A stretch of 64,000 nt of DNA from Candidatus Villigracilaceae bacterium (lineage in GTDB: Bacteria; Chloroflexota; Anaerolineae; Anaerolineales; Villigracilaceae). Under the pieces are notes generated by a model, which was not told where the DNA came from, searched no databases, and was given only the letters and a program-made list of their open reading frames with translations. The translations under genes were made by a program, and so were the position numbers. The DNA is taken from assembly GCA_026645935.1 (NCBI GenBank), contig JAPKMP010000006.1:62001-126000 (forward strand), read 5' to 3'. Shown in pieces: positions 43,653-62,426 of the stretch (positions are counted from its first letter, which is position 1; each line of letters starts with the position of its first letter).

Positions 43653-44648
43653 TCACCCGCCGATCTGACTCATGCCGCGTTGTGAACCGGCGGGCCCGGT
43701 TGCGAGCATCTTGTGGTGCTGTGGTTTGTTGAGAATGGCTTGGCGATAATGATCGTCCAGGGGTTGCCCTAAGCGTACAGCCTCGCGTAACGAGATTTCA
43801 TTGGAATTATCGAGGCACGGTCGTAATTTCCCGTCCGCTGTAAGGCGAAGGCGGTTGCAGGTATCACAAAAATGTTCGCCAAGCGGTGAAATAAAACCCA
43901 CCGTGCCCAAAGCACCCGGAATACGAAACGTCCTTGCCGGACCGTTACCAATGACGGTTTGTACCGGTTGTATGTCGAACGCTGAAATCTGCGCGCGCAT
44001 CTCTTGTACAGAAACATATCGCTCGGAGGGAGTTGGAAAACCATCTCCCCAATCTTGTGTATTCCCGACCGGCATCAGTTCGATAAAGCGTACGTGCCAT
44101 TCATGTACAATGGTCAACCTGGCGAGGGCGGGTAATTCGTCGTCGTTGAGTCCGCGCACGATCACGGTATTCAACTTGATGGGCGCGAGATGCGCCCGTT
44201 CAGCAGCGGCAATCCCCTCCCAAACCTGGTCAATGTCTCCGCCGCGGGTGATGCGCGTGAACTTCTCACGGTCGAGCGTATCCAGACTGATATTGACACG
44301 GCTCAAACGCGCATCGGCGAGCGGCTGCGCCAGCCGTCCGAGCAGCATTGCATTGGTTGTTAGGCTTACTTCTTCGATATTTGGGATGGAGGCGATGCGG
44401 CGCACGATCTCAACGATGAGTGGATGCACCAACGGTTCGCCACCTGTCAATCTCACGCGCCTCACTCCCCACCTTGAAGCTGTTTCGACGACCCGCAGAA
44501 TTTCATCCGCTGAAAGTTGTTCCGCCCTCGGCTGCCATTGCAGACCGTCCCTCGGCATGCAATAAACACAACGCAGGTTGCAGCGGTCTGTGAGAGAGAT
44601 ACGCAGGTATGTGATCGAACGCCCGAATGGATCGATGAAGTCTTTCAT
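43653..44648 (-). CDS. moaA: GTP 3',8-cyclase MoaA (molybdenum cofactor biosynthesis)
   Basis: This is a 331-aa radical SAM enzyme catalysing the first step of molybdopterin synthesis, conversion of GTP to 3',8-cyclo-GTP. The N-terminal radical SAM motif is CNLRCVYC (Cys23, 27, 30), and the C-terminal second cluster is HFCDTCNRLRLTADGKLRPCL. The protein ends in GG, required in this family. The frame is open upstream to 45032 but runs inside the TauE/SafE gene; ATG 44648 overlaps the TauE stop (ATGA). It is the last gene of the FmdE-TauE-MoaA unit, which begins behind a structured leader. Confidence 0.95.
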   Translation of the reverse strand: MKDFIDPFGRSITYLRISLTDRCNLRCVYCMPRDGLQWQPRAEQLSADEILRVVETASRWGVRRVRLTGGEPLVHPLIVEIVRRIASIPNIEEVSLTTNAMLLGRLAQPLADARLSRVNISLDTLDREKFTRITRGGDIDQVWEGIAAAERAHLAPIKLNTVIVRGLNDDELPALARLTIVHEWHVRFIELMPVGNTQDWGDGFPTPSERYVSVQEMRAQISAFDIQPVQTVIGNGPARTFRIPGALGTVGFISPLGEHFCDTCNRLRLTADGKLRPCLDNSNEISLREAVRLGQPLDDHYRQAILNKPQHHKMLATGPAGSQRGMSQIGG

Positions 44649-45397
44649 GCGAATAAGGTGGTTAACCAATAGGTACCGACTGCAATCGACAGGATGGTGC
44701 CCAATGCGCGGCGCACACCTGAAATCGAGAACCGGATCGCCCCCAACCGACTGCCGATCAACGCGCCAGCCAGACCGAAGATCAGAAGCGAAACGCCGAA
44801 CTCGCCAAAATCCAGGGTTCCGTTTGCGACGCGGCCGAACAACCCGCTCAACGAATTGACGGCGATGAATCCTCCCGCAGATGCAGCGGCTTCCTTGGCA
44901 TTTCCCCATTGCATGAGAATGATAAGCGGTGAGAGAAAGATACCGCCACCGATGCCTATCATTCCCGAGAGCAGGCCAATGGCGGCTCCACTGATCAATG
45001 CGAGCCATAACGGGACCGGACGATGTTTCCAATTCGGTGCTTCGCTGATCACGGGGGCTAGAACCATGCGCAATGCAAGATAGGTCAACACCACATACAA
45101 TAAAGTTGTATATGTCTTATCGGTGAGCTTTATCGTGGCGCCCAGAAATGCCGCCGGGATCGAAGCCACAAGGAACGGAAGTAGCAACCGCAGGCGAAAA
45201 TGACCGGCGCGCATGTAATTCACAAACGATATGGACGAAACAAAGATGTTCAATACCAGGGCTGTGCTCGCCATGACCGCCACCGGAATGCCAAAAAAGC
45301 TCATGGCAACCAGGTACCCCGACGCGCCGCCAAAACCTGCGCTGGAATACAATAAGGCGATCACGAAAACAAGAAACGAGATCAGGATGTCTGTCAC
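44645..45397 (-). CDS. TauE/SafE family sulfite/anion exporter-like permease
   Basis: This is a 250-aa membrane protein with about eight helices in two repeats. ALLYSSAGFGGASGYLVAMS and SGMIGIGGGIFLSPLIIL are the two repeated Gly-rich signature loops of TauE/SafE permeases, which move sulfite, sulfonates or other anions. I choose GTG 45397, which overlaps the upstream stop codon as GTGA, over a longer start that would overlap the FmdE gene. Location between FmdE and MoaA suggests an anion (sulfur or oxyanion) role in cofactor supply, which is inference. Confidence 0.85.
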   Translation of the reverse strand: MTDILISFLVFVIALLYSSAGFGGASGYLVAMSFFGIPVAVMASTALVLNIFVSSISFVNYMRAGHFRLRLLLPFLVASIPAAFLGATIKLTDKTYTTLLYVVLTYLALRMVLAPVISEAPNWKHRPVPLWLALISGAAIGLLSGMIGIGGGIFLSPLIILMQWGNAKEAAASAGGFIAVNSLSGLFGRVANGTLDFGEFGVSLLIFGLAGALIGSRLGAIRFSISGVRRALGTILSIAVGTYWLTTLFA

Positions 45398-45999
45398 GGT
45401 TGTGAGTTCTCGAGGATGGGGAGTGAGACCGGGATTTGATAATAAGAATATCCGGCGCAGGGGCGACAAATGAAGATCCCTTCGTGGATGATCTCGCGTT
45501 CATTCATGATCTCTTCGCCGCACACTTCACACCGGACCCGGATGCCGGGCCTGGACACGATGGACTCTATTGTCGCTTTAAGTTGGACTTCCGTCACAGT
45601 AAGCATTTCGTCGTCCGGCATGATCTGGTAGGTTTTCATTTGAGCGAAATAATGGCGGGATTCATCCACGGCATATTTGCGGGCTTTCTCGCGGATGTCC
45701 AATGCGGGGGCTACACGGAAGGCGCGATGCGTTTCTGTATCGATGAATGTTGCGGCGGCTTTGCCATAGTCTTCGATCCGCAGGGTGCGATGACCGACAG
45801 TGCAATCTGTTGCAGCCGAAAGCCCGTCTACAAAGCAACCGTCGGTTTCGGCAATGGTCAGAATCCGTTTTGAGCGAAGGTTCGGACCGAGTTGCAATGA
45901 GCCAAGTCCCCTGAGTCCGATGCGAACGCCGAGAATCTGGCGCGGACATAGATGGGAATGAAGTTTCAAAGATTTTTCGAGCAGGGATTGAATATCCAT
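45394..45999 (-). CDS. FmdE family protein with C-terminal zinc ribbon
   Basis: This is a 201-aa protein of the FmdE (formylmethanofuran dehydrogenase subunit E) family. The N-terminal HSHLCPRQILGVRIG and the central ETDGCFVDGLSAATDCTVGHRTL motifs hold conserved His and Cys. The C-terminus has a four-Cys zinc ribbon (CEVCGEEI...CRPC). In non-methanogens its function is not firmly established, but it is repeatedly found with molybdenum or tungsten enzyme genes. It is the first gene behind the candidate riboswitch and couples to the permease gene. Confidence 0.88.
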   Translation of the reverse strand: MDIQSLLEKSLKLHSHLCPRQILGVRIGLRGLGSLQLGPNLRSKRILTIAETDGCFVDGLSAATDCTVGHRTLRIEDYGKAAATFIDTETHRAFRVAPALDIREKARKYAVDESRHYFAQMKTYQIMPDDEMLTVTEVQLKATIESIVSRPGIRVRCEVCGEEIMNEREIIHEGIFICRPCAGYSYYQIPVSLPILENSQP

Positions 46000-46044
46000 G
46001 GTCTTCCTCGTACCTGTTTGTTATGGAACGTCATGCGGGCGGGT

Positions 46045-46200
46045 AAAAAAACACCGCCTCGCGAAAGGAGACGGCACGGTATAATCACGCGTTCTCCTTT
46101 CCAAGTCCACCCCATTTGCATTAATGGGATTTCGGGAAGGCTGTTCCGTTTCCGGTTCAGCCCTTGCGCCTCGGGGGCGCCTGCCCGTTCCGTCATGACA
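46045..46200 (-). promoter_or_regulatory. Structured leader with terminator/antiterminator (candidate Moco-type riboswitch)
   Basis: On the minus strand, stems are visible in order: GCGCC-CCCGA-GGCGC, GGCTG-AA-CCG-GAAA-CGG-AA-CAGCC with a GNRA tetraloop, and CCCATT/AATGGG. The last part contains GGAGA (46093-46097) that can pair with TCTCC, and a terminator CCGTCTC-loop-GAGGCGG (46054-46074) followed by TGTTTTTTT. The two pairings exclude each other. The terminator lies 46 nt before the FmdE start, and moaA is downstream. A molybdenum-cofactor riboswitch is my best guess, not verified. Confidence 0.55.
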
Positions 46201-46344
46201 TTCGTTTTAGACCGAACAGATCGGAGCGTTGTTAATGGAATGAATTTCATCAATTCATTCTTTTGTATCATAGTGGATTTCCCCTCTTCTTACATCATCA
46301 ATCCGGGGTATTTTCGCCGTCACTCCAACGGGTGATGACGAAAA

Positions 46345-46560
46345 TCATTTAGTCAGGTCTTTGGTGGTCTTCTGAATTTCGTCGAGCATATCCAGTTCGG
46401 CTTTCAACTCGCTGGAAAGCGACGAGAAGTAGGACCTCAAATTGCGGACAAATTTACCGATCTCGCGCGCCGAACGCGCCAGTCGTTCCGGTCCGAGGAC
46501 GATGGCTGCCAGCAGGATGATGACGATCAGTTCATTGCCGCCAATTCCGAAAATATCCAT
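46345..46560 (-). CDS. tatB: Twin-arginine translocase TatA/TatB family subunit
   Basis: This is a 71-aa TatA/B protein: an N-terminal membrane helix (FGIGGNELIVIILLAAIVLG, with the FG-x-P/E hinge as LGPERL), an amphipathic helix (ARSAREIGKFVRNLR) and an acidic tail. The longer amphipathic helix and the Glu after the FG-like N-terminus favour TatB, but the TatA/TatB distinction is not safe by eye. It is the last tat gene, one base after the TatC stop region. Confidence 0.8.
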   Translation of the reverse strand: MDIFGIGGNELIVIILLAAIVLGPERLARSAREIGKFVRNLRSYFSSLSSELKAELDMLDEIQKTTKDLTK

Positions 46561-46561
46561 A

Positions 46562-47365
46562 TCAACCTCTGCCGACGATGGCGGCTAACAAGATGCTGAT
46601 CAGGTAAAGTCCCATCAGTGGAGCCATCACCAGCCCCATGTTGACCGGATCCACCGTGGGCGTGACCGCCGCGGCGACGAAAGCCATGCCTACGATGGCA
46701 TAGCGCCAGCCGCTTGCGAGTTGTTTTGCGGTGACGAATTTCATCTTTGCCAGGAACATGACGATCAAAGGCATTTCGAAGCAAACGCCGATCCAGAACA
46801 TCAGCCGGGTGATGAATTCGAAATAATTCTCAGGCCGCACCTGGGTGGTGATGCCCATGAAGCCGGTCAGGAAGGGAATGGCAGCCGGGAGCATAATGAA
46901 CCAGGTGAACGCGACTCCGCCTGCAAAGAGCAGGGTGGCAAGCGGGACCATGATAAGCAGCCAGAGACGTTCCTGACCCTTCAAGCCGGGCAGGATGAAT
47001 GCCATCACCTGGTAGACGATGAAAGGCATTGCAAGCACAAAGCCGCCCAGGAGCGAGACCTTCATGAAGATCGCGATATTTTCGGTCAACTCGATGGAGA
47101 CGAGATTCGATATGCCGCCGATGGGCGCCGCAAGATAGGAGATGATCTGCTCGGAGAAGGCGAAGCTGATGCCGGTGGCGACGATCAACGCAAGGAACGC
47201 CTTGAAGGTGCGGGAGCGCAACTCGTTGAGATGGGCAAGGAGTGGCGCCGAGCTCTCCATCTGGACGCTGGCTTTTTTGTGAGCGCGTCCGAGCGCGCGA
47301 AATATGCCGCGCCAGTTGCGTTTTTCCTTTTTCAGCGTGTTTACCTGCGCGTTCACGTGCGGCAT
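46562..47365 (-). CDS. tatC: Sec-independent protein translocase TatC
   Basis: This is a 267-aa six-helix membrane protein of the TatC family. LLAHLNELRSRTFKA is the conserved N-terminal cytoplasmic motif for Tat signal recognition, and SLLGGFVLAMPFIVYQVMAFILPGLKGQERL matches the central conserved block. A ~35-residue N-terminal extension precedes it. The ATG overlaps the tatA stop by one base (TAATG). It exports the folded Tat substrate DmsA encoded in the same island. Confidence 0.95.
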   Translation of the reverse strand: MPHVNAQVNTLKKEKRNWRGIFRALGRAHKKASVQMESSAPLLAHLNELRSRTFKAFLALIVATGISFAFSEQIISYLAAPIGGISNLVSIELTENIAIFMKVSLLGGFVLAMPFIVYQVMAFILPGLKGQERLWLLIMVPLATLLFAGGVAFTWFIMLPAAIPFLTGFMGITTQVRPENYFEFITRLMFWIGVCFEMPLIVMFLAKMKFVTAKQLASGWRYAIVGMAFVAAAVTPTVDPVNMGLVMAPLMGLYLISILLAAIVGRG

Positions 47366-47538
47366 TATCCGTTCTTATCGCCGGTTTCCGCCGGTTCCTC
47401 GTCGTCTTTCAAGCCCTTGCGAAAACTGGTGACGCCCTTGCCGATCTCACCGGCAATTTTACTAATACGCCCCACTCCGAAAAGCAGGAGGAGGATGACC
47501 AGTAGGATGATCAATTCGGGGGTGCCTAAATGAAACAT
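47365..47538 (-). CDS. tatA: Twin-arginine translocase subunit TatA
   Basis: This is a 57-aa TatA protein: MFHLGTPELIILLVILLLLFG with the FG motif before the amphipathic helix (GRISKIAGEIGKGVTSFRKGL) and a short acidic tail. It forms the pore of the Tat pathway. The frame is open to 47625, but the start at 47538 has an AGGAGAAAAGA box. It is followed directly by tatC. Confidence 0.92.
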   Translation of the reverse strand: MFHLGTPELIILLVILLLLFGVGRISKIAGEIGKGVTSFRKGLKDDEEPAETGDKNG

Positions 47539-47551: not shown

Positions 47552-48877
47552 TTATATATCCTTCGATAGCCGAAATGCCTGCGGTGTGGTGACATCCACC
47601 TTGAGTTCCCGCAGGACCTGTTCATTATCGCGGGTTTCGATTACGTGACTGGCAATGCCCACGTCCACGTTCAACTTCTTCAAGCTGGTGATCTTATCGA
47701 CATGGAACTCCAGGCTGTTTTGTTTTTCATTGAATAAGTATTCGCGGTAACCCGATTTGTCGAATACCCGGCGAACGGATGGAATGTCTGCACCGAAGAC
47801 CTTGGCGGTCTTGAGGAAGTAATCGCGCTGTGAAAAATGGATGCGCAAGGGCAGGCGTTTTCTGCTGTTTTGTTTATAGAGCTGACCCGTGTGCTTGTTC
47901 TCCAGCGAACAATAATGCACGCCGAGCTTCAACCCTTTTTCGAGCGCAAAGTCGAGCAGTTCGAGGCAGACCACTTCGCTTCCCGCAATAGGGAGCCCGC
48001 CCGCGTACCAATAATCGTAGAGCACTTTGAAAGGCCTGGCTTTGACCTTGTATCCCTTTTCGCGGTAGGTTTCCACGTTATTGAGAGGGAAACAGAATTC
48101 CAACAAGTTGATGCCGAAGATCCCCAGTTCCTCGAGCCGCAAGAGAACATCCTTCATTTCTTCCAGCGTATCCGGCAGGACGGGCATTTCGACCATCACA
48201 TTCGGGATGTACTCGCGCGAAAGGGCGATGCTGTCGTAGGTATGAGTGTGACCTTTGGCGAGATCGTGCATGCGAATGCTGAAACGAATCTCAGTCAACC
48301 CGGATTGCTGCAGGGATTCGAGAATGGCACGGTCGATGTGATCTCCGCTCGTGTAGAGGCGGGTATGCGAATTTGGGTAAAGTTTGCGGGCTTGTTCGAA
48401 GAAACTGTACGTCTCTTCCTTGTGGAGGAGGGGCTCGCCGCCCGTTAACGCGATATGACCAAGCGCGGATTTGCCCGCCCGAGTCTCCTCAAGCTCCTTC
48501 ACCACATCGCGGGTGTGCTCGCGGAAGTATTCGTAATCTTCCTGGTTGGGGTTGAAGCAGTAAAAACAATCGCGGTGGCACTTCAAAGAGACGAAGAAAG
48601 TCGCGCTGCCTGTGCCGGTCTGGCAGGCGACGCAGGAAGGCGAGATGCGGTTGGTGTAGATGCTTTTATCGCTGTTGCGGATGGTCGCGCCTTTTTTTCT
48701 GAGGGTCTCCAATTTTTGAGCGACCAGTTCCGACGTGTCTTCAACGTCCACTTCCAGACCCATCGCACGCACCTGGTCCATGAAATCCTGATAGATCTGC
48801 ACGTAGATGTTTGCGTAATCGCGTAGTGCGGGGTTTTGGATCCGAGGAAGGGTAGTCTGGGTCACATCAATGATCAT
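47552..48877 (-). CDS. Radical SAM protein of the molybdoenzyme island
   Basis: This is a 441-aa radical SAM enzyme. The cluster motif is CHRDCFYC (Cys100, 104, 107), preceded by an additional SCVAC pair (Cys82, 85). ALTGGEPLLHKEE matches the SAM-binding GGEP motif. The second half has a conserved GVHYCSLENKHTGQ segment with one Cys, and no SPASM cluster is obvious. Its substrate is unknown. ATG 48877 overlaps the ferredoxin gene stop (ATGA). Position between polyferredoxin and Tat genes suggests a role in maturation of the reductase. Confidence 0.85.
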   Translation of the reverse strand: MIIDVTQTTLPRIQNPALRDYANIYVQIYQDFMDQVRAMGLEVDVEDTSELVAQKLETLRKKGATIRNSDKSIYTNRISPSCVACQTGTGSATFFVSLKCHRDCFYCFNPNQEDYEYFREHTRDVVKELEETRAGKSALGHIALTGGEPLLHKEETYSFFEQARKLYPNSHTRLYTSGDHIDRAILESLQQSGLTEIRFSIRMHDLAKGHTHTYDSIALSREYIPNVMVEMPVLPDTLEEMKDVLLRLEELGIFGINLLEFCFPLNNVETYREKGYKVKARPFKVLYDYWYAGGLPIAGSEVVCLELLDFALEKGLKLGVHYCSLENKHTGQLYKQNSRKRLPLRIHFSQRDYFLKTAKVFGADIPSVRRVFDKSGYREYLFNEKQNSLEFHVDKITSLKKLNVDVGIASHVIETRDNEQVLRELKVDVTTPQAFRLSKDI

Positions 48878-50049
48878 TGGCGCAACCCCTTTACGATTTT
48901 CTTCGGCAGCAAAGACCCAAACGGATGAGTGCGCCGATATGCGCACAGCGGGCATAACTTCACGCCCTCCCGCGCTGCCATCCATGACTTGCATCGCTCA
49001 CACTGGACCAGGGAGCCGGATGCAACGACCTGCGACTCTTCTTCGCCGAAGACTTGTTGAAAAGCGGGCTCATGATCGAGCGTGATCGCACCTGGCTGGC
49101 AGACATGATCGCAAAGATCGCACCCGATACAATTCTTCGGCGAGAAAGTGAGGGAGAATATCGCATTTTCATTGTTCTTTTCGAACCTTAATGCGCCGGT
49201 GGGGCAGGCACGCCCGCATGCGCCGCATGCAGTACATGCTTCTGAGATTGTGAGAGCGGCGAAGCCAAATCCAGTGAGGTTGACGGTTGATGAACTTTCG
49301 ATTCGATTTGATAACGCGGAGTTCATTCGCAATCGATCACGACCTGGCTGGCGTCCCGAAGCGACAACTCCCTTTTCCATGGCGCGCGCAAGGGCGATCT
49401 GCCCCTGCTTTGCCATCATGCGGAAGAGGTCGCGGCGGGAGAGCGGCGGGTTCTTTGCGTTCCAGAGAGTGCGCTCCACCGGCGATTGAATCTCGTCCAC
49501 GCATTCGACTGAAGAATCATTTTTCCATGCGGAGGTGAAGCGGGCGGCGCGCCGGGCTTGGGAGTGAATCTCAGGGTGAAGCGAATGCCACTTGCAGTCC
49601 GCACAGGTATCGGCGCGGAGAGTGAGGCGTCTGATCCCAAGGTTCGAGAGGGTCAACAATGCGCCGGTTCCCAAGCCTGCAAGACATCCGCGAATTTGAA
49701 TCCCAATGGCTTCGGGGTTTGTCGCGGTTTCAGGGTGCGGATGGAGTCCGCAAAACAGTTCGACCGGTTGGTCTTCGACATGCGCGGCGCAGGTCAACAG
49801 GTCTGCCACATCATCGTCCGCGTGGAAAGCGCCCACAGGGCAGACGGGCAGGCATGCCATGCAGGATTCGCAAATTTTAGAATTGAGTGTGGGGGGCTTG
49901 CCGGTTGTGATCGCCTGAACGGGACAAATATCGAAACACGCCGCGCAATCCGAATGCCGATCCTGAGTGTGCAGGCAGCGTTTCGATTCGAGGGTGATCT
50001 CTGAGCGGTCGATTGCAGCAAACCGTTCAGCGGCGTTCAGCAGACTCAC
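48874..50049 (-). CDS. Polyferredoxin-like 4Fe-4S protein with C-terminal zinc-ribbon-like end
   Basis: This is a 391-aa protein with an N-terminal ferredoxin pair (CAACFDICPV and CESCMACLPVCPVGA), a central region with Cys/His (CADCKWH), and a second pair near the C-terminus (CTACGACGRACPTGA and CIGCDLCDHVCQPGA), then CERCKSW...CPLC. Four clusters and a metal-binding tail are expected. GTG 50049 overlaps the TorD stop (GTGA). No Tat or Sec signal is seen, so it probably serves as a cytoplasmic electron carrier for maturation or for the radical SAM enzyme. Confidence 0.87.
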   Translation of the reverse strand: MSLLNAAERFAAIDRSEITLESKRCLHTQDRHSDCAACFDICPVQAITTGKPPTLNSKICESCMACLPVCPVGAFHADDDVADLLTCAAHVEDQPVELFCGLHPHPETATNPEAIGIQIRGCLAGLGTGALLTLSNLGIRRLTLRADTCADCKWHSLHPEIHSQARRAARFTSAWKNDSSVECVDEIQSPVERTLWNAKNPPLSRRDLFRMMAKQGQIALARAMEKGVVASGRQPGRDRLRMNSALSNRIESSSTVNLTGFGFAALTISEACTACGACGRACPTGALRFEKNNENAIFSLTFSPKNCIGCDLCDHVCQPGAITLDHEPAFQQVFGEEESQVVASGSLVQCERCKSWMAAREGVKLCPLCAYRRTHPFGSLLPKKIVKGLRQ

Positions 50050-50744
50050 AATGAAACTTCCTTTGGCATTTTGATCCGCAATGCTTCGGCGGCAGCGAAC
50101 AATGCGCCGTGGGTGAGGTGGGCAATGCCGCGGTAAAAATCGGTGGCGGCGTGTTTCTTGACAAGTTTCGCCCAGGCGGGTCCCCAGCATAAAAGGTGAT
50201 TGAAAAGAAAATCGCGTTGGGCTTGCAGGAGTTCGTTCAATTTCATTTCATCACCCTGTTCAGCCGCTTGGAATGCGAGCGAGGCAAGGTGGGCGACGAA
50301 AGATAGTTCCAGCCCGATATGATCGTCCGGCTCGTTGTTGATCCGCTCTGCCTGTAAGCCGAAGCGGGCATACCACTCGCGGATCTTCAGGGTCTGTTCC
50401 TGAAAAAGCAATCTTTTTTCGCTGGTGTAAACAGACTCCCACATTGGCGCGGGAACCTTGTTCAGCCCGATGAATAGATTCAAGTGATCGTCTTTTACCG
50501 CTTTGAATTGGGCGGAGTCCAACCCCTCTTTGTTTTCTTTTGTCCAGCGTAGCAGCAGTTCGACGCCGTGCAACGTTTCGTTTTGTTCCGCCGCAAAGGG
50601 GACTTCGATGAACACATCGTCGCGGATGAGCGACTCGAGCCAGGCTTTATCCGGCTCGGTGTAAATGATCTTCCCCAGCAGCCCGAACAGCAGTGATTCT
50701 CCGAAGAGGGTGGTTTTCAACTCATTCATCACGATTGCCTGCAT
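50046..50744 (-). CDS. TorD/DmsD family chaperone for molybdoenzyme maturation
   Basis: This is a 232-aa helical protein with the TorD signature EPDDHIGLELSFVAHLA (E-P-x-D-H...E). These chaperones bind the Tat signal peptide of a molybdoenzyme and delay export until cofactor insertion. The target is most probably the DmsA-like protein at 55303-57768. A GGAG box lies 7 nt before ATG 50744, inside the end of the WD40-haem gene, so translation is coupled. Confidence 0.9.
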   Translation of the reverse strand: MQAIVMNELKTTLFGESLLFGLLGKIIYTEPDKAWLESLIRDDVFIEVPFAAEQNETLHGVELLLRWTKENKEGLDSAQFKAVKDDHLNLFIGLNKVPAPMWESVYTSEKRLLFQEQTLKIREWYARFGLQAERINNEPDDHIGLELSFVAHLASLAFQAAEQGDEMKLNELLQAQRDFLFNHLLCWGPAWAKLVKKHAATDFYRGIAHLTHGALFAAAEALRIKMPKEVSL

Positions 50745-53771: not shown

Positions 53772-54668
53772 TCAGAGACCGATGCGATAGTGCGTGGCAT
53801 AGAAGATGAAACGTCCCATCGCTTCGCCGATCAGCGCAAGAGCGAAGGCGCTGTAGGCGAGGGTCGCCAGGGTTTGCTCCTTATCAGCGACGGCTGCGTT
53901 GCGGTAGAGGTACGCCGCCAGCACACCGGCGCCAACAAAGAGAGTCAACAGGCGCAGGAAGAACACGAAACCATAGAGGCCGATCATCATGTTCAGGGAT
54001 TGCAGTGCCGCGCCACCCTGTGTGGCAAGATATGCCAGATAGAGCGGAAGGACGACAAACTCGATGCCCAGAAGCACGATGGCACTGATGGCGAGTCCTT
54101 GAAGGACGTTGTTGACGATAGGCGTCTCCGTTTTCTTGAGCCCGGCATGTCCCATGACGAGCGCGGCGGCCATTCCGAGCGAACCGATCAGCAAACTGCC
54201 AACGATGAAGGTGACGGGTGTGGCAAGCGTGTTCCATGCCGGCTGGGTGGCGATCATGTACACCATGCCCATGGCGTAGATGTAGGCGAGGGCGAGCAGG
54301 GCGGTGATCCAGCCAATGGCGGTGCGCAGGCTTTCGCTTCCAACTTTGCGCCATTGCAGGTAGGTGTATAGCGCGGCGAAGATCACGAATGCCACGGCAA
54401 TGACCACTTCACGGCTCAGCCAGGAATAACCGATGTTTGGCACGGCGCGGGCGATGTTCAATGGGCTGCCGAGATGGAAGAGAGAGGCAAGCAAAGCCAG
54501 AGCCATGAGCGGCACGACGAGGAAGAGCGGACGATTGGTAAGGCGGTCTGCAAGATCGCCTCCCGCCCGGGCAAGATAAGCGCGCACGATCATCAACACG
54601 ATCATCAAACCGGCGGCAGTCTGCCCGAGGATAGTGAAGGCTAGCAAAGCCCATTCGCGAGTGTCCAT
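53772..54668 (-). CDS. DMSO reductase membrane anchor subunit (DmsC-like)
   Basis: This is a 298-aa membrane protein with eight helices of the DmsC family. It starts MDTREWALLAFTILGQTAAG, and carries SLFHLGSPLNIARAVPNIGYSWLSREV, the conserved quinol-site region, and the C-terminal IGEAMGRFIFYATHYRIGL. It should oxidise menaquinol and pass electrons to the Fe-S subunit. It is encoded directly after that subunit. A second anchor lies at 59458-60378. Confidence 0.92.
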   Translation of the reverse strand: MDTREWALLAFTILGQTAAGLMIVLMIVRAYLARAGGDLADRLTNRPLFLVVPLMALALLASLFHLGSPLNIARAVPNIGYSWLSREVVIAVAFVIFAALYTYLQWRKVGSESLRTAIGWITALLALAYIYAMGMVYMIATQPAWNTLATPVTFIVGSLLIGSLGMAAALVMGHAGLKKTETPIVNNVLQGLAISAIVLLGIEFVVLPLYLAYLATQGGAALQSLNMMIGLYGFVFFLRLLTLFVGAGVLAAYLYRNAAVADKEQTLATLAYSAFALALIGEAMGRFIFYATHYRIGL

Positions 54669-54669: not shown

Positions 54670-55290
54670 TTAGAGCTCCTCCAGGTTCATCAGACGTCCA
54701 TCGCCGGAGCGGGACGACTTGGTGATCTTGTTTGGTTTGTAGACCACGGCGGGCTCGGTAATGGCTGGGTCGGGCAGGGGGGCCGGGTCTGCAAACGTGC
54801 CGTATTTTTCCCTGATCTCGTCCAATGGACCAAAGTCCATGGCGCGGTAGGGGCAGGATTCCACGCAGGCAGGGCGTTCGCCCTTGTCTACGAGGTCTTG
54901 GCACATGTCGCACTTGGTCATCACGTTCAGTTCTTCGTTGAATTGCGGGGCGCCGTAGGGGCATGCCCATGAGCAGTAGCGGCAGCCGATGCACATATCG
55001 GCGTTGATGAGGACGATGCCGTCATTCCGTTTCGAGATTGCGCTCGTCGGGCAGACGTCCATGCAGATCGGTTTTTTGCAGTGCATGCATGCCGAAGACA
55101 CGGAATAGGTGTATACGCTGCTGGGGATCATTTGTCCATTCTGATCGACCCACTCACCGCCTTCATATTGGAAAACCTTGCGCCAGCGGACTCCCACGGG
55201 CAGGTTGCTCCTGTCTTTGCAGGCGATCTGGCAGGCTTTGCAGCCGGAACACTTGTTTATATCGACATAAAAAGCAAGTTGTTTAGCCAT
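54670..55290 (-). CDS. 4Fe-4S dicluster electron-transfer subunit (DmsB-like)
   Basis: This is a 206-aa four-cluster ferredoxin subunit. Cys groups occur in order: CSGCKACQIAC, CMHCKKPICMDVCP, CIGCRYCSWACPYGAP, CDMCQDLVDKGERPACVESCP. It relays electrons between the anchor and the molybdenum subunit. No signal peptide is present, as usual, because the protein is co-exported with its Tat partner. Confidence 0.95.
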   Translation of the reverse strand: MAKQLAFYVDINKCSGCKACQIACKDRSNLPVGVRWRKVFQYEGGEWVDQNGQMIPSSVYTYSVSSACMHCKKPICMDVCPTSAISKRNDGIVLINADMCIGCRYCSWACPYGAPQFNEELNVMTKCDMCQDLVDKGERPACVESCPYRAMDFGPLDEIREKYGTFADPAPLPDPAITEPAVVYKPNKITKSSRSGDGRLMNLEEL

Positions 55291-55302: not shown

Positions 55303-57768
55303 TTATAACTTCTCGACCTGAACCAGGTTGGTGTGCGCCGTGAAGCCCTTTGCCATCGGGGTCGGGCGGTAGTTCGTGAGCGTGTTGCCACACCCGCGGG
55401 TATCCACACCATCGGCGTTCGGCGTGTAATGAGCGCCTTGAGGAATATTGGTCGTACCCGGGCGGATGCGGTTTGTCACGTAGGCGGGGATGTGAACGAC
55501 GCCGCGGTCGTTGTAGACCTTGACCATGTCACCGTTCTTGACGCCGCGTGCCTCCGCATCGAGCGTGTTGATCCAGATACATTGCGGATGCGCCTCGCGC
55601 AGGATGTCCACATTTTCGAAGGTCGAATGTGAACGCGCGACCCAGTGAGTCGTCATCATCATCAGCGGGTACTTTTCACGCAGCGGGTCGCTGACACCCT
55701 CCCATTCGGGGATGTAGGTCGGGATGGGCGGGATTTCCTCGTTCTTCAGGTTTGCCAGAACAGGGGAGTAGATTTCGATCTTGCCTGTTGCGGTGCCGAG
55801 GGGATTTGCCACTGGATCTGCCCGGAATGCTTCAAAACCAACGAAGGGTTTGCCGCCTTTGGTTTTATAGATCCCTTTTTCCTTGAACTCTTCCAAAGAT
55901 GGGAAGTCAGGCAGGCTGCTTTGCGCGCCGGCTACCATGTCCTTCATCCAATCATCACGGGTCAGGTGCCCATCACGGAAATCCTCCCCAAATCCAAGCC
56001 GGTCCGCAAGTTGTTCTGCAATCCAGACATCGTCTTTGGCTTCGAACATCGGCTCGATCACCTTGTGGTTGTACATCGCCCAGGCATGATTGCCCTTGAT
56101 GCCGTGGCCTTCGCCGGTGATGATGTTATCCACTTCGAAGCCAGTGGTGCCGGGCAGGATGATATCCGAGTACATGGTACTTGGGGTCATGCCCACTTCC
56201 ACCGTGACGATCATTTCCAGTTTGGAGTCGTCCTCGAGCACCTTGCGGGTGTAGTTAACGTCTGCATGCTGATTGATGATGCAGTTGCCACCGTGATTCC
56301 ACATGAACTTCATGTTGGATTTCAGGCGCAGATTTTTATTTTCCTGTGCGGTTGTCGTGTCACCGGCGGTCGCGCTCCAACCGGTGCTCGCTCCGCGGAT
56401 GTAGTCCTTCTCAACGGTCATATCCGTGCCGCGCGTGACGAAATCGGGCCACATAAAGCACGGGATGGAGACCTGAACCGGGTTCGGGGGAACCGGAATC
56501 CCGCCCATCGGGCAGTATCCGCCGCCGGGGAGTTGTCCCGTATTGCCGCCGGGGATGCCAAAGTTGCCGGTCATTGCGGCGAGGATCGGAACAGCGCGGA
56601 CGAATTGTTCGCCGTAGGCGCGCCTTTGCGGACCCCAGCACTGGATGATTGCGCAAGGTTTGATGGACGCGATTTCCCGCGCCAGATTCGCGATGCGTTC
56701 GGCAGGTATGCCGGTAATGACAGCTGCCCATTCGGGGGTCTTTTCAACCTTGTCGTATCCTTTGCCCATGATGTATGCCATATAAGACGAGTTGCGCGGC
56801 GCGCCTTCAGGCAGGGTGTTTTCATCGAAACCGGCAGTGTGGGTGGCCATGAATTCCTTGTCGTACAGGTTTTCCTTGACCATTACATACGCCATGGCGG
56901 CGATGAGAGCCACATCGGTTCCGGGGTTGATCGGGATCCATTCCGCCTGTGTCGCAGCGACTGTTTCCGTCATGATCGGGTCTACGACGATGAATTTAGT
57001 ACCCTGTTCGGCTGCTTTCATATACCAGTACCCGCCGTTATCACCACCAGCGCGAGTAACAAGCGAGTTGTCACCAAGTAGAAGTACCAGTTTAGAGTTG
57101 ACGATGTCGTCGGCTGAATTTCCAACGTAACCCCCTGTGATATAAGGCATGGCAACACCGTAAGCGGCTTCGCTGTAGGTTCCATAGTAGCCGACGTAAC
57201 CGCCGAACATGCTTAACATTCGCTGGATGATGGAAGAACCATCGGGACCATTCCAGGTAACACCCCACGCATAATTGAAGTAGAATGCCTCATTTCCGTA
57301 GGTATCCTTGATGCGTTTCATTTCACTGGCAATGGTATCCAGGGCTTCTTCCCAACTAATGCGTTCGAATTTGCCTTCGCCTCGTTTGCCCACTCTCTTC
57401 AGGGGGTATTTGAGTCTGTCAGGAGCGTACACGCGCCTGATCTGCGCGCGCCCGCGCAAGCAGGGGATCGCGCGTGGAGATTCAGGCGTCTCTTCCTCCA
57501 CCGGCGTGGGGTCGGGGACGATGCGTAGGAGTGTGCCATCCTTGACCTTGGTGGCCAGAATACAACGGCCGCCGCAGTTGTGATAGCACCCTACTGTCAG
57601 GGTTTGTTCCTCACCAGCCGCCGCAGCGCCCTCAATAGCCTTGAGGCCGTAATCGACACCGCCCGCAAGCGCGGCTGTCCCGCCGATGGCGGCGCTCCAT
57701 TTAAGGAAACTGCGCCGGGTCATCACAGTGTCGTTCAGGGCTTTGGTGAGGAAATTATTTTGTGTCAT
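55303..57768 (-). CDS. Molybdopterin oxidoreductase, DMSO reductase family catalytic subunit (DmsA-like)
   Basis: This is an 821-aa catalytic subunit with a twin-arginine signal (TRRSFLKW, Arg18-19). The FS0 cluster motif is Cys61-x3-Cys65-x3-Cys69-x33-Cys103, and the molybdenum ligand region YYGTYS (Ser199) indicates serine coordination as in DmsA and TorA. The pterin-binding segments, including WNHGGNCIINQHADVN and the C-terminal NRIRPGTTNIPQGAHY, are present. It reduces an oxygen-atom donor, such as an S- or N-oxide or an oxyanion. The substrate cannot be fixed by eye. It is encoded with DmsB and DmsC homologues, cytochrome, TorD and Tat genes. Confidence 0.93.
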   Translation of the reverse strand: MTQNNFLTKALNDTVMTRRSFLKWSAAIGGTAALAGGVDYGLKAIEGAAAAGEEQTLTVGCYHNCGGRCILATKVKDGTLLRIVPDPTPVEEETPESPRAIPCLRGRAQIRRVYAPDRLKYPLKRVGKRGEGKFERISWEEALDTIASEMKRIKDTYGNEAFYFNYAWGVTWNGPDGSSIIQRMLSMFGGYVGYYGTYSEAAYGVAMPYITGGYVGNSADDIVNSKLVLLLGDNSLVTRAGGDNGGYWYMKAAEQGTKFIVVDPIMTETVAATQAEWIPINPGTDVALIAAMAYVMVKENLYDKEFMATHTAGFDENTLPEGAPRNSSYMAYIMGKGYDKVEKTPEWAAVITGIPAERIANLAREIASIKPCAIIQCWGPQRRAYGEQFVRAVPILAAMTGNFGIPGGNTGQLPGGGYCPMGGIPVPPNPVQVSIPCFMWPDFVTRGTDMTVEKDYIRGASTGWSATAGDTTTAQENKNLRLKSNMKFMWNHGGNCIINQHADVNYTRKVLEDDSKLEMIVTVEVGMTPSTMYSDIILPGTTGFEVDNIITGEGHGIKGNHAWAMYNHKVIEPMFEAKDDVWIAEQLADRLGFGEDFRDGHLTRDDWMKDMVAGAQSSLPDFPSLEEFKEKGIYKTKGGKPFVGFEAFRADPVANPLGTATGKIEIYSPVLANLKNEEIPPIPTYIPEWEGVSDPLREKYPLMMMTTHWVARSHSTFENVDILREAHPQCIWINTLDAEARGVKNGDMVKVYNDRGVVHIPAYVTNRIRPGTTNIPQGAHYTPNADGVDTRGCGNTLTNYRPTPMAKGFTAHTNLVQVEKL

Positions 57769-57974: not shown

Positions 57975-57990
57975 TCACCCTTAAGGGTGA
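57975..57990. promoter_or_regulatory. Palindrome TCACCCTTAAGGGTGA upstream of the DmsA-like gene
   Basis: A perfect 16-bp palindrome arranged 7-2-7 (TCACCCT-TA-AGGGTGA). It overlaps the stop codon of the cytochrome gene and lies 207 bp upstream of the DmsA-like start. NarL-type regulators bind two inverted heptamers (TACYYMT-like) spaced by 2 bp. It is a candidate site for the response regulator encoded next door, although the heptamer is not a perfect match. Confidence 0.45.
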
Positions 57991-58772
57991 TTCGGTAATT
58001 GGTCGAATTCAAGCCCGCTGACCTGGCTCAACCCCCAGGGATTGTTTTCGAAATGACAGCGGGAACAATCGACCTCGCTTTGCAGGTCGTGCGAAAAAGG
58101 CAATTCGCTGCCATCTTCGTGCAAGAGAACCCAGCGGCCGTTTTCCAAAGAGGGACCCGCTTTCACCGGGCTGCCACCATGACAGGCTTCGCAAGCTACA
58201 AACGCGTGGGCAGGTCCATGGATTGAACGGGTGGTTTGCGCCACCGCTGTTGCCATCGAATGACAATTCCCACCGCCGCAAAAGGATGAACCGTTCGTAG
58301 GGTGACCGTTGGTAGGAGTGGCGGGCAAATCGTAAAATACAGTGGGGATGTTCGAATGACAACCTGAATCTGTGCAGGAAACTTTGGCGACATGGGGATC
58401 GTGACAATCGCCGCAGGAAAAATCGGGATGGGCGCTTCCAAAGGATGGAACTTGGTGGCACCGACTGCAAATGGGATCTTCGCCCAAGCCTGCCTCATTC
58501 TGACCTTTTTGCGGTTTGCCGTGCTGAAGCTCATCCATCACGATCCCATTCTCCACCGAATGGCAATTCTCGCAACCAACAGGGTCCGCTGCCAAAGCAT
58601 GAGGACTTTTCTCCCAGATATCGGTGATTTCATATTGCCGCTCAGGGATCTGCGGAGTGGACGTTGGAGTGGGTCGAGGTGTATCGGTTGGGCTGGGCGT
58701 TGGAATTGGCTGAACATTCCAGCAGGACACAATGAACACCAAGTTCAAGTAAATTGGCAGATATTTCTTCAT
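57981..58772 (-). CDS. Multihaem c-type cytochrome lipoprotein
   Basis: This is a 263-aa secreted protein. It has a short signal and probable lipobox (LVFIVSC, Cys17), a Pro/Thr-rich linker to residue 40, then haem motifs CENCH, CSRCH, CGDCH, CEACH and CSRCH, plus unusual CTDSGCH (CX3CH) and CGGGNCH (CX4CH). Seven haems are possible, with several extra His as distal ligands. It would transfer electrons at the outer face of the membrane. It precedes the DmsA-like gene and follows the response regulator gene. Confidence 0.87.
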   Translation of the reverse strand: MKKYLPIYLNLVFIVSCWNVQPIPTPSPTDTPRPTPTSTPQIPERQYEITDIWEKSPHALAADPVGCENCHSVENGIVMDELQHGKPQKGQNEAGLGEDPICSRCHQVPSFGSAHPDFSCGDCHDPHVAKVSCTDSGCHSNIPTVFYDLPATPTNGHPTNGSSFCGGGNCHSMATAVAQTTRSIHGPAHAFVACEACHGGSPVKAGPSLENGRWVLLHEDGSELPFSHDLQSEVDCSRCHFENNPWGLSQVSGLEFDQLPNHP

Positions 58773-58783: not shown

Positions 58784-59440
58784 CTAACTGTCGCGCGGCG
58801 AGACCAACCCATGCTTCAAAGCATAGGTGGCAGCCTGGGTGCGGTTTTCCAAATGTAATTTCTCGAGAATATTCTTGATATGACTCTTGACCGTATTGAC
58901 GGAGATCGTCAGTTTGTCGGCGATCTCCTGGTTGCTGGCGCCGCTTGCCACCAGACGCAGGACGAATAACTCCCGCTCGGTAAGGGATTGCTCGCCCTTG
59001 TCTTCATCTGCCATCCGGTTCGCCACGCTTTTGAGCAATTTCGACGCCATGGCGCGAGTCATGGCTGGCTCGCCGTGAGTTACGCCGTGCAGGAGGTCGA
59101 ACAATTCGTTCGCATCGAGGCTTTTCAATAAATATCCCGCCACGCCGATCTGAGCCGCTTCATATAAGTGTCCGTCCCGTTCGGAGGATGTAAGCATCAC
59201 CACGGCAATATGCGGGAAACGCTGTCGAATCTCCTTTGCCGCCTGAAGTCCGTCGGTCTGTGGCATGTAAATATCGAGAAGGATCACATCCGGGTTGAGT
59301 TTTTCAGCCAACAGAATGGCTTCCTCACCCGTTTCAGCCTCGCCGATGACCTCGACCAGGTCCTCCCGGGTTTTCATCAAGCCGATCAACCCCTGGCGGA
59401 ACAGTTTGTGGTCGTCTGCTATCAAAACTTTGATCGTCAT
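58784..59440 (-). CDS. NarL/FixJ family response regulator
   Basis: This is a 218-aa response regulator. The receiver domain has DD (residues 9-10), the phosphoacceptor Asp56 (VILLDIYMP), a Thr/Ser in MLTSS and the Lys in YLLKSLD. The C-terminal LuxR HTH is LTERELFVLRLVASGASNQE and following. The cognate kinase is encoded by the gene at 60375-62426, separated by the anchor gene. It probably activates the reductase operon in response to the electron acceptor or redox state. Confidence 0.95.
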   Translation of the reverse strand: MTIKVLIADDHKLFRQGLIGLMKTREDLVEVIGEAETGEEAILLAEKLNPDVILLDIYMPQTDGLQAAKEIRQRFPHIAVVMLTSSERDGHLYEAAQIGVAGYLLKSLDANELFDLLHGVTHGEPAMTRAMASKLLKSVANRMADEDKGEQSLTERELFVLRLVASGASNQEIADKLTISVNTVKSHIKNILEKLHLENRTQAATYALKHGLVSPRDS

Positions 59441-59457: not shown

Positions 59458-60378
59458 CTATATTCCCACGCGGATGTGCGTGGCATAAAACAGGAACCGC
59501 CCAATGATCTCTCCCACCAGTATCATCAGGCAGGAAAGATAGACCGGGTTCATTAAATTTTGCGGCGCGGATTGTTTTTTATACATCTTGACTACAGCCA
59601 AGGCAAGCGCGAGGGGGGCATAGGTCAGGCATGCCAGCCGCAAAAGCAGGAGTGGCAGATAAAGCTCCACCAGTAGCTTCAAGCTTGTGCGGGCGATTTG
59701 ATCTCCCTGAGAAAGGAGACGGATTTGCGTGAAAAGAATTCCCAGGCTGAACACAGCAAGGACAACCGTCAAAACTGTCAATCCGCCGGAGGAATGGCGG
59801 ATGACCTGGGCGCGCAGGTCCACATCATCGGCTTTTTGGATCTCCGCGAACTTCAGATCCAGCATCATCAGGCAGGCGATTGCCATGCCACCAAGCATCA
59901 GCGCTGTGGTGAAAAATGAAAGGATCACCGTTGTGGAATTCCATGCCACCTGGGTGGGGATGAGGTAGATGAGCGCCATGCAATAGATCAAAATGAACCC
60001 AAAAACAATCGCCAACCAACCCAGCCCGCTGACAAGAGTGCGCCGATGGGGCTGGAAATATACAAGATACAACACGATCATTGTTGTCAGAAAGAACAAG
60101 ACCGTGAAGATGATTTCCCTGCTAAGCCAGGATGTTTTGAAATTCAGCACGGCGAGGAAGGAATGAAACGGCTTGCTCAAATGGAAATGTGCACCGCCCA
60201 TGGCGACGATGATCGTAAAGGCGATCACAAGGATCGGATTGAAAATGATGCGGTCGATCTCCTGCGGACTGAACTTCGAACCTGCCAGATGCCGAATCAA
60301 CCAAATGATGAAGAAAGCCCCGACCGCCAGTTGCATCAGGATCGTATAAACCGGTAATGCCCATTCCCGGACGTTCAT
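59458..60378 (-). CDS. Second DmsC-like membrane anchor subunit
   Basis: This is a 306-aa polytopic protein of the DmsC type, starting MNVREWALPVYTILMQLAVG and ending RFLFYATHIRVGI, the same ends as the 53772-54668 anchor. It is sandwiched between the sensor kinase and the response regulator genes, not next to an Fe-S subunit. It may be an alternative quinol docking protein or an input module for the sensor. The frame is open upstream to 60684, but ATG 60378 overlaps the kinase stop (ATGA). Confidence 0.87.
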   Translation of the reverse strand: MNVREWALPVYTILMQLAVGAFFIIWLIRHLAGSKFSPQEIDRIIFNPILVIAFTIIVAMGGAHFHLSKPFHSFLAVLNFKTSWLSREIIFTVLFFLTTMIVLYLVYFQPHRRTLVSGLGWLAIVFGFILIYCMALIYLIPTQVAWNSTTVILSFFTTALMLGGMAIACLMMLDLKFAEIQKADDVDLRAQVIRHSSGGLTVLTVVLAVFSLGILFTQIRLLSQGDQIARTSLKLLVELYLPLLLLRLACLTYAPLALALAVVKMYKKQSAPQNLMNPVYLSCLMILVGEIIGRFLFYATHIRVGI

Positions 60379-62426
60379 TGGATCACCACGCTTTGTTTTT
60401 GAAGTCTTTCCCTTTGCAGGCAGGGCAGGCGGCATTCGATATGCGTTCCACGCCCGACCACTGATTGAATGTTCAAGCTGCCGCCTGAACCCTCGGCGCG
60501 TTCCCGCATCGTCTGCAATCCGAAACTTCGCTTTGAACCCGCCGTTTGAAAACCGATCCCGTCGTCGTCGACGTGCATGTGGATGTATTCGCCTTCCTCC
60601 CCCTTTTCCTTCCAGATGGCAACGTCCACTCGTCCGGCTTGCGCATGTTTGCGGATGTTCGTCAGCGCTTCCTGCAAAATACAAGCCAGTTGCACCTCGG
60701 CAACCGATGAAAGGTTCAACTCGCCGTCCACGCGATAATCAAAATTCGTATCGACCCCCATTTGAATGCCGAACTCGGTCAGGTACTCATCTGCCGCGGT
60801 TTCGAGTCCCTTCTCCTGGGCGAGCGTGGTGCGCAGGCTCAGGATGTTTTCGCGCACATCCGCATGGGCAGTCTGGATCGCCTGCCGCATCTTCGATAAT
60901 TCCTCCTGTAATTTATCGATCCTGCCCTGACTCAGGAACGACCCCAACGTTTGTGTTTGGAGGTTCAAATACCCAAGAACTTGCGCCAATCCGTCGTGCA
61001 TTTCGCGTGCGATGCGGCTGCGTTCCTGAACAATGGACAGCGACTGTAATTGTGATGTCATCAAGCCGTGCTGGATGGCAATCGCCACCTGGTCTGCCAT
61101 GCTTTCCAGCCAGATCATGTCGGTATCGGAGAAGGGATCGTCCCCGAAGCGCGCGCTCCATAATGCGCCGATGGTCGTGTTCTCAAGTTTGAACGGCACA
61201 ATCACCGCCGACTTCGCTGTTTTATCGGTGAAGAAACAAATTCCCTCCGGGGGTTCGATATCTTCGGCACATTTCGAGGAGAATGGAGTCGAGCTTTTTA
61301 CCACGCTTTTGATGAGCGGATTCGTCACGATGACCGGTGATTCATTGACGAGTCGGCTCTCACCGCCCTGGGAGCGGCACTTCAACTCAAGAAATTCGTT
61401 CCACTGATTCAATATTGCCAGGCCGACGAAATCTGCGCGCAACAGACCGCGCACATTCTCCACGATGTAAACGAGGATATCGTCCACATGCTCGAGCTCG
61501 GCAATGCGGCGGCTGATGTTCACCAGCGCATCCGTCCACTTCTCGGCGTTTCTTCGCGCCAGGATTTGAGAATCGAACGCCTCTTGTTGGGCGCGGTCTC
61601 TTTCTTCTTGAAGGGCTACGATCTGTCTCTTTCGTATTGCCTCGAAAACATCCAATGCTCTCGCCACAAAGTACGTCACTATCACAGCGGAAAGCATGCG
61701 CCAGATCTCGATGGGCATGCCTGTCGTGTTCAATACGCTTTGATAATCGAGCCAGGCAGATAGCCCATATGGCTGGCTGCCCTCCAGGATTTCCCCGCTA
61801 AAGGCATTGTGGATCACCCTGTCATAGTTATAGTAGGAGGCGGGTCCGTAAGGGGCGGCTGGAACGATCAGCCCCATCATGATTGCCTCGAAGAGAAACG
61901 CCAACCCCGCCCCAAGCATCAAGTTCGAGACATCGTAAAAACCGCGTCGTCGCTGGGAATACCATTGGCGCAGGAACCCGACCCCTGCAAGAAGACTGCC
62001 CGGCAGGTAAAGCAGGTAGCGCGTCCAGATCTCAATTGGAATTTCCAGGGGGGACGGCGTAATGAACGTTGTCGCCGCATAGGTTATGACAAATGCAATG
62101 GGTACGATGAGAATCCCCGGGACGAATATGCTCCAGGGGGGCAGGGGGTCGAGGTTGTTGAACATCCCCCAGCCGAAGCGCAAAATAAGCAAACCCGTCA
62201 GCAGGTGGAGACAGACCCGCAAAATGCTCAAACCATATGCCAGTTCGCCAAGCGACCCGCTGACAAGGAACATCTCCGTCCAGCCAGCTGCACCTCCCAC
62301 AATGCCGAAAGAAGCCAGCCAGGGCAGTTCCTTCTTCAAAGGAAAGTCTCCCTCCCTCCTAAATTGCAAATACGCAGCCAGCCCCAAACCTTCGAAAGCC
62401 AAACCGTAGAAGAAGAGAAGAATCAC
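60375..62426 (-). CDS. Sensor histidine kinase (NarX/LiaS-type HisKA_3) with TM sensor and GAF domain
   Basis: This is a 683-aa kinase. Residues 1-~260 contain seven or eight predicted transmembrane helices, residues ~265-300 a coiled linker, and ~310-455 a GAF domain. The dimerisation domain has the phosphoacceptor His477 in REMHDGLAQVLGYL. The ATPase domain shows the N box EALTNIRKHA and DDDGIGF. The start is GTG 62426. It phosphorylates the NarL-type regulator. The sensory input is unknown; the TM region could bind quinones or small molecules. Confidence 0.92.
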   Translation of the reverse strand: MILLFFYGLAFEGLGLAAYLQFRREGDFPLKKELPWLASFGIVGGAAGWTEMFLVSGSLGELAYGLSILRVCLHLLTGLLILRFGWGMFNNLDPLPPWSIFVPGILIVPIAFVITYAATTFITPSPLEIPIEIWTRYLLYLPGSLLAGVGFLRQWYSQRRRGFYDVSNLMLGAGLAFLFEAIMMGLIVPAAPYGPASYYNYDRVIHNAFSGEILEGSQPYGLSAWLDYQSVLNTTGMPIEIWRMLSAVIVTYFVARALDVFEAIRKRQIVALQEERDRAQQEAFDSQILARRNAEKWTDALVNISRRIAELEHVDDILVYIVENVRGLLRADFVGLAILNQWNEFLELKCRSQGGESRLVNESPVIVTNPLIKSVVKSSTPFSSKCAEDIEPPEGICFFTDKTAKSAVIVPFKLENTTIGALWSARFGDDPFSDTDMIWLESMADQVAIAIQHGLMTSQLQSLSIVQERSRIAREMHDGLAQVLGYLNLQTQTLGSFLSQGRIDKLQEELSKMRQAIQTAHADVRENILSLRTTLAQEKGLETAADEYLTEFGIQMGVDTNFDYRVDGELNLSSVAEVQLACILQEALTNIRKHAQAGRVDVAIWKEKGEEGEYIHMHVDDDGIGFQTAGSKRSFGLQTMRERAEGSGGSLNIQSVVGRGTHIECRLPCLQRERLQKQSVVIQ

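Follow-up and report, generated by a model that had tools for sequence, protein, structure and literature searches.

A radical SAM protein that accompanies Dms-type molybdoenzymes in five phyla, and its putative respiratory island in a Villigracilaceae bacterium

Introduction

Maturation of enzymes of the dimethyl sulfoxide (DMSO) reductase family is thought of as insertion of the molybdenum cofactor (Moco), assisted by a chaperone and followed by export through the twin-arginine translocation (Tat) system. The closest described systems are DmsABC and YnfEFGH-DmsD of Escherichia coli. Here we analyse a stretch of 64,000 nucleotides (the window) from Candidatus Villigracilaceae bacterium, a member of the Chloroflexota (assembly GCA_026645935.1, contig JAPKMP010000006.1, positions 62,001 to 126,000), which holds a Dms-type locus. 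The locus shares with both E. coli systems the A, B and C subunits, the serine place, the Tat signal and a chaperone of the NarJ/DmsD superfamily. Unlike the annotated dms and ynf stretches of E. coli K-12, it has adjoining genes for a radical S-adenosylmethionine (SAM) protein, a polyferredoxin, Tat components, haem proteins and Moco supply.

The window enzyme is best read, from its sequence, as a respiratory reductase for an S-oxide, N-oxide or oxyanion, equipped with export and Moco supply of its own. Its radical SAM protein is not special to the island. We consider it probable that the locus is a self-sufficient respiratory island in which the radical SAM protein and the polyferredoxin carry out an enzyme-specific maturation step, a role judged most likely because the radical SAM gene is linked with genes for a chaperone, a ferredoxin and export, and the reductase carries a Tat signal. 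The E. coli DmsABC paradigm lacks such a radical step, and the titles, abstract openings and passages covered (PMC11574389 and PMC4464133 among them; subscription papers and preprints lay outside this scope) describe no radical SAM partner of Dms enzymes.

Results

Linkage of the radical SAM protein to Dms enzymes

One scan of GTDB contigs yielded 97 relatives of the radical SAM protein, and 80 of their loci were sampled, with metagenome-assembled genomes (MAGs) dominating and contigs generally short; loci and genomes are given below by our L and G numbers. The protein occurs in five phyla, represented by Chloroflexota, SAR324, Bacillota, Pseudomonadota (Morganellaceae, Achromobacter) and Eggerthellaceae. 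A relative of the window's dmsA or dmsB (>50 bits) was present in 63 of the 80 loci, the other 17 lying mostly on short contigs. Among the 47 loci flanked on each side by more than 6 kb, many of them close kin, 46 hold such a relative within 10 kb, and 43 have a DmsA of the window's type (type 1) or of a second type described below (type 2); L044, L053 and L095 have more distant DmsA relatives only, and L083 none. Ten genomes were chosen in which neither type was seen at the radical SAM locus, and all ten gave a DmsA match at 1e-100 in the genome, seven of them to a full-length type 2 (>1100 bits). Within Chloroflexota, the radical SAM protein was found in 6 of 400 genomes; a DmsA match at 1e-80 was obtained in 16, which include all six (hypergeometric 1.5e-9, kinship ignored).

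The sequence-only reading of this DNA had left the radical SAM protein as an unexplained part that might be linked to a special cofactor or maturation step. The protein is not peculiar to the island, since it accompanies Dms enzymes in five phyla; it therefore probably helps to finish the enzyme. The same reading proposed to follow its co-occurrence with the WD40-haem protein of the island, but the latter appears in only 20 of the 80 loci, with no case outside Chloroflexota at >60 bits.

In eight Bacillota loci (L047, L050, L051, L053, L057, L059, L073 and L074), a molybdoenzyme of 676-688 aa and an iron-sulphur subunit are encoded on the strand opposite the radical SAM gene, which the molybdoenzyme gene mostly adjoins. 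A regulator family recurs there, with one member matching PucR.

Exchange of the catalytic subunit

A tree built from 99 DmsA-like rows (all trees here are quick trees with SH-aLRT support only) sets type 2 apart as a clade of its own, with 46 rows and a long branch, to which most of the catalytic subunits linked to the radical SAM protein belong. Full-length members span about 840-975 aa, and the five examined against TIGR02166 scored 465-589, under its cut-off. In 119 genomes of Providencia's family, which include reduced genomes of <1 Mb, type 2 was found in five at >1290 bits, the next match reaching 411. The radical SAM protein was present in four of these five and in none of the other 114 at E 1e-60 (hypergeometric 6e-7, kinship ignored), although 66 of the 119 have some DmsA-like match; it therefore follows type 2 rather than DmsA in general. 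Among the 400 Chloroflexota genomes, type 2 occurs in four, one of which (G089) gave no radical SAM match; of the six genomes with the radical SAM protein, three carry type 2 and the others the window's type 1.

G005 is 77% identical to the window in the radical SAM protein, 80% in TatC and 70% in the kinase, yet only 36% in DmsA; G248 shows 57% identity in the radical SAM protein and 68% in DmsA. On the radical SAM tree, the type of the linked DmsA switches at least eight times over 55 labelled rows, six switches being forced by starred branches; the 21 Chloroflexota and SAR324 rows account for six switches. Labels were taken from the DmsA at the locus for 55 of 82 rows, with L027 and L072 (partial DmsA) labelled by identity and L060 (both types) and 26 others left unlabelled. 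We conclude from these switches that a conserved chassis took up different catalytic subunits, and the radical SAM protein, if it acts on DmsA, must therefore act on both types.

Some type-2 frames are interrupted, by a stop in L153 (G433) and by division into two pieces in L072 (Providencia rettgeri RB151). The Eggerthellaceae genome of L092 (G407) has 12 type-2 matches that score >700 bits, and an internal stop interrupts one of them.

Family of the window enzyme

The window DmsA passes TIGR02166 (DMSO/selenate reductase A subunit) with 883.7 bits against a cut-off of 777.7, and DmsB passes TIGR02951 with 238.7 against 214.1. The chaperone passes PF02613 and fails PRK11621, the DmsD equivalog (88.1, cut-off 162). 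DmsA stays under the cut-offs for ArrA (98 vs 1600), TtrA (71 vs 1750), NapA (71 vs 904) and NarG (80 vs 1084), and scores 228.5 with TIGR03479 for type II DMSO-family enzymes, far under 984.75. In the DmsA tree, the window's DmsA lies inside a 13-row Chloroflexota/SAR324 clade, which is part of a larger one of 17 rows that also takes in E. coli DmsA, YnfE and YnfF. The serine of the GTYS motif, which we take to be a ligand to molybdenum, is present in 16/16 type-1 rows, 37/39 type-2 rows (two gaps) and 14/14 rows not linked to the radical SAM protein. Kinship with the Dms/Ynf clade points to a reductase of the S-oxide, N-oxide or selenate kind. A dmsABC operon of Desulfitobacterium hafniense is induced by selenate according to PMC3306737; no tie of this operon to type 2 emerged.

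An enzyme running in the opposite direction, as an oxidase (of a thioether, for example) whose electrons go to the haem proteins and to an acceptor outside, is unlikely. The multihaem and WD40-haem proteins encoded in the operon would suit it. The low score for type II DMSO-family enzymes, a group that takes in the known oxidases of such a type, the DmsC-type anchor and the score within the DmsA/YnfE family argue instead for reduction, and the core of the locus occurs elsewhere without haem proteins.

Layout, export genes and mobility

Searches of the window with Pfam, NCBIfam and Rfam profiles delimit a minus-strand block at 43653-62426 of 17 genes and one riboswitch, about 19 kb, listed in transcription order in Table 1. 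The co-oriented molybdoenzyme island named by the sequence-only reading is thus real, with every named part found on the minus strand. Adjacent genes either overlap or are separated by no more than about 60 bases, except for 212 bases upstream of dmsA and 345 bases between tatB and fmdE, the latter occupied by the riboswitch. The arrangement is more than chance, because the neighbourhood is conserved in relatives; the closest among the matches listed are Chloroflexota MAGs, mostly Anaerolineales. Recent insertion was considered and dropped: GC content shows no shift at the borders and the window has no tRNA, hence there is no mark of such an event. The host genome (4.33 Mb) encodes one further copy each of TatC and MoaA outside the island, and a ModA-like protein elsewhere.

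TatABC was correctly recognised before, with the gene order now corrected to tatA-tatC-tatB. In a TatC tree, 25 island TatC form one clade (96, starred), apart from 16 other TatC. All six Chloroflexota genomes with the radical SAM protein have two TatC copies, compared with one in nine and none in one of ten chosen kin. An extra TatC of the island clade in five of the six, together with the restriction of the radical SAM protein to genomes with DmsA, indicates that the gene set behaves as one unit. The sequence-only reading had set against itself a DmsA from a well-characterised clade combined with extra genes of independent history; DmsA does stand next to the well-known Dms/Ynf clade, but the radical SAM protein and TatC are inherited together with the island.

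A six-gene core, polyferredoxin-radical SAM-TorD-DmsA (type 2)-DmsB-DmsC, is found in G413 and G433 of Providencia's family and in E. coli CT02, N9 and BKQWHE (L158, L179 and L180; 3 of 5,426 E. coli genomes), where the protein is annotated as 'radical SAM protein' only. The E. coli copies sit among pieces of IS26, IS5 and Tn3, plus a LysR gene. Occurrence in several phyla and, in E. coli, among insertion sequences implies that the core moves between bacteria. A plasmid origin was tried and rejected, with no radical SAM match in 72,556 plasmid records (two queries, E 1e-30 and 1e-20). The earlier idea of a transferable module is therefore supported for the core, in several phyla and three E. 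coli, and not supported for the whole 19 kb. The block of haem proteins, TatABC and FmdE is seen with the core in Chloroflexota, and a part with NTPase and energy-coupling factor (ECF) genes, described below, also in L054.

A passenger reading, in which a region dense in genes happens to surround a standard DmsABC and recent descent alone keeps the extra genes linked, is very improbable. The complete island, seen only in Chloroflexota contigs and partly in SAR324, would agree with it; the recurrence of one core across five phyla, with E. coli among its hosts, and the exchange of the catalytic subunit with retention of the accessory genes would not.

The radical SAM protein and the polyferredoxin

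The radical SAM protein matches PF04055 with 58 bits (cut-off 29.5). In an alignment of the window with 53 of the 80 loci, seven cysteines are invariant in 54/54 members: C100, C104 and C107 form the CX3CX2C motif, and the other four, C82, C85, C262 and C323, may ligate an additional cluster. Of the NCBIfam models listed for the window protein, none passes its cut-off, the best being HxsC (43 bits vs 268). TIGR04317 (tungsten cofactor oxidoreductase maturase) and TIGR04311, predicted radical SAM maturases whose names refer to tungsten or metalloenzyme partners, match only weakly and in 7/54 and 16/54 members, respectively; the list of 16 families matched by the window protein at E 0.001 does not contain TIGR04317.

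A confident structure model (predicted local distance difference test, pLDDT, 94.3) fits the radical SAM core of solved structures. NifB and HydE are radical SAM enzymes that build metal cofactors. What they have in common with the modelled protein is the core fold (NifB Z 16.5 over 209 residues, HydE Z 14.4), and since viperin and others fit equally, the core is not diagnostic. A known fold beyond the core was sought and did not emerge among the 50 Foldseek matches listed, with TMq of 0.26-0.40. VIA-align ranges stop at or before residue 358, and the last 80-100 residues are barely covered by comparison.

The polyferredoxin consists of two [4Fe-4S] sites, a middle part, two further [4Fe-4S] sites and C-terminal cysteine pairs, a layout identical in E. 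coli CT02. Its gene lies directly upstream of the radical SAM gene in 30 of the 80 loci.

The Moco riboswitch and associated genes

The riboswitch exceeds the RF01055 gathering score of 36, precedes fmdE and is the sole RF01055 match in the genome. RNAs that bear a P3 are associated with Moco and not with tungsten, according to Regulski 2008 (PMC2408646); with a hairpin taken as P3, the window riboswitch is therefore assigned to the Moco rather than the tungsten type. It differs from the riboswitches of that paper in preceding fmdE-led operons, the words fwdE and fmdE being absent from its main text. FmdE itself is well above its cut-off of 22.9, and its zinc finger lies just under its own. 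The cofactor link suggested earlier for FmdE thus gains support from a riboswitch that the sequence-only reading had missed.

Among 25 loci chosen from the 80 and scanned (L013 standing for L041), 18 have a Moco riboswitch. It precedes fmdE in the window, L013, L017, L025, L027, L028, L042, L046, L048 and probably L037; it precedes an operon led by an NTPase_1 gene and an ECF-type ATPase in L018, L019, L020, L022, L031, L032, L038 and Bacillota L054; and it precedes Moco genes on the other strand in L052. Seven scanned loci (L029, L040, L045, L047, L049, L055 and L063) gave no RF01055 match. Downstream in L018-L020, L022 and L038 follow a methyltransferase-like, an S-component-like, a PF00174-type and/or a CbiQ-like gene, then FmdE.

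The ECF-type operon (L018:12630-17832, likewise L019, L020, L022 and L038; cut or partial in L031, L032 and L054) is a candidate importer of molybdopterin or Moco. Besides FmdE, it encodes a protein with the molybdopterin-binding oxidoreductase fold that is apparently a lipoprotein (PF00174, whose cut-off is exceeded in L020 and L022); its S-component match is under cut-off.

Haem proteins and sensor trio

The heptahaem lipoprotein of the sequence-only reading, an apparent lipoprotein here too, carries five CxxCH and two CX4CH motifs, and its relatives keep 5-8 CxxCH and 1-2 CX4CH. The WD40-haem protein, read as an outer electron carrier on the basis of its sequence, combines an apparent signal peptide, a propeller, a beta-rich middle and a C-terminal membrane helix (model pLDDT 76.5; haem segment 336-397 below 50). 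Its three haem motifs are invariant in 12 aligned rows, and some WD40 relatives at the same position have no haem motif.

The protein proposed earlier as a second anchor does match DmsC but lies between kinase and regulator. This trio recurs in five loci (window, G005, L029, L033 and L039), which makes the DmsC-like protein look like a sensor part rather than a plain anchor; it is missing from five further loci that encode both kinase and regulator. It is probably a membrane sensor partner and may sense quinone or redox state.

Outside the island, large BTAD/TPR and NB-ARC/TPR regulators at 39882-43100 and 28549-30912 of the window flank an oligopeptide ABC transporter set.

Table 1. Features of the island in order of transcription, with the evidence for each assignment
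Feature	Position in window	Strand	Evidence and remarks
Sensor histidine kinase	60375..62426	-	Pfam GAF, HisKA_3, HATPase; 70% identical in G005
Second DmsC-like membrane protein	59458..60378	-	Pfam DmsC 70.9 bits
LuxR-type response regulator	58784..59440	-	Pfam
Multihaem cytochrome, apparent lipoprotein	57981..58772	-	Cytochrome_C7; 5 CxxCH + 2 CX4CH
DmsA/YnfE-family catalytic molybdopterin subunit	55303..57768	-	Molybdopterin/Molydop_binding, Tat signal, GTYS; TIGR02166
Iron-sulphur subunit DmsB	54670..55290	-	Fer4; TIGR02951
Membrane anchor DmsC	53772..54668	-	PF04976 93 bits
WD40-haem protein, 3 CxxCH	50722..53709	-	WD40 Pfam, structure model
TorD/DmsD-type chaperone (Nitrate_red_del)	50046..50744	-	PF02613
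Polyferredoxin, start approximate	48874..50049	-	Pfam, Cys layout
Radical SAM protein, 441 aa	47552..48877	-	PF04055, invariant Cys
TatA	47365..47538	-	PF02416
TatC	46562..47365	-	Pfam TatC; one of two in genome
TatB-like	46345..46560	-	PF02416 28.5 bits
Moco riboswitch	46078..46238	-	RF01055 62.1 bits
FmdE-domain protein, zinc-finger-like tail	45394..45999	-	PF02663 95.3 bits
TauE/SafE membrane protein	44645..45400	-	PF01925 107.5 bits
MoaA	43653..44648	-	Pfam; one of two in genome

Discussion

We propose that quinol would supply the electrons with which DmsABC reduces its acceptor, an S-oxide, N-oxide or oxyanion, on the outside of the membrane. TorD would hold the apo catalytic subunit during cytoplasmic maturation, followed by export through the island's TatABC. 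Before export, the radical SAM protein, supplied with electrons by the polyferredoxin, would modify the cofactor or the polypeptide. FmdE, TauE and MoaA may secure the Moco supply, switched by the riboswitch, which is identified by homology. The kinase, the second DmsC-like protein and the regulator would sense redox state or acceptor, and the multihaem lipoprotein and WD40-haem protein may carry electrons on the outer side.

Several observations weigh against this reading. Type-2 DmsA occurs without a detected radical SAM protein in G089 and G434, and three of the ten genomes with no type-1 or type-2 dmsA at the radical SAM locus (G401, G405 and G408) show type-1-like DmsA scores only. The polyferredoxin was not found in 8/8 Morganellaceae loci with the radical SAM protein. 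The extra TatC of G028 lies on another contig, is divergent and falls outside the island clade, so that the clade holds for five of six carriers. L040, L045, L049 and L055 have fmdE yet no riboswitch match. Finally, no DmsA residue except the Phe of the Tat motif separated linked from unlinked rows at the thresholds used, and no DmsB residue marked linkage among 63 linked and only six unlinked rows.

The DmsA comparison set 16 type-1 and 39 type-2 linked rows against 14 unlinked rows, four of which (three Morganella and G377 C29) come from genomes with the radical SAM protein elsewhere. It excluded the 676-689-aa relatives, TorA-like, 955-988-aa and long-branch rows, duplicates, L044 and the type-2 row of G089, which lacks the radical SAM protein. 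A peptide target in DmsA or DmsB, sought in this way by conserved columns, was accordingly rejected as a candidate, only the Tat-motif Phe having emerged.

This lack of a target residue, and the fit to known radical SAM enzymes in the core only, would also be expected of a metabolic enzyme that acts on the reduced product or on a precursor of the acceptor and is no maturase. We regard that role as improbable: the protein stays with two widely differing DmsA types, is often encoded beside chaperone genes and, in Chloroflexota, beside Tat genes, and has no noticed export signal, whereas the reductase has one.

Within the maturation reading, a bolder version, to which we give somewhat less than even chances, is that the radical SAM-polyferredoxin pair constitutes a new, horizontally moving maturation system that alters the Mo cofactor or a nearby residue before Tat export and is able to serve different catalytic subunits.

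A radical SAM protein that tracks one branch of the DMSO family through several phyla, often accompanied by a polyferredoxin of its own, suggests that a chemical step in the making of these enzymes has gone unseen. Gut Eggerthellaceae also carry it, one such genome having a dozen type-2 enzymes. Exchange of the catalytic subunit on one conserved chassis illustrates how the respiratory range of bacteria may change.

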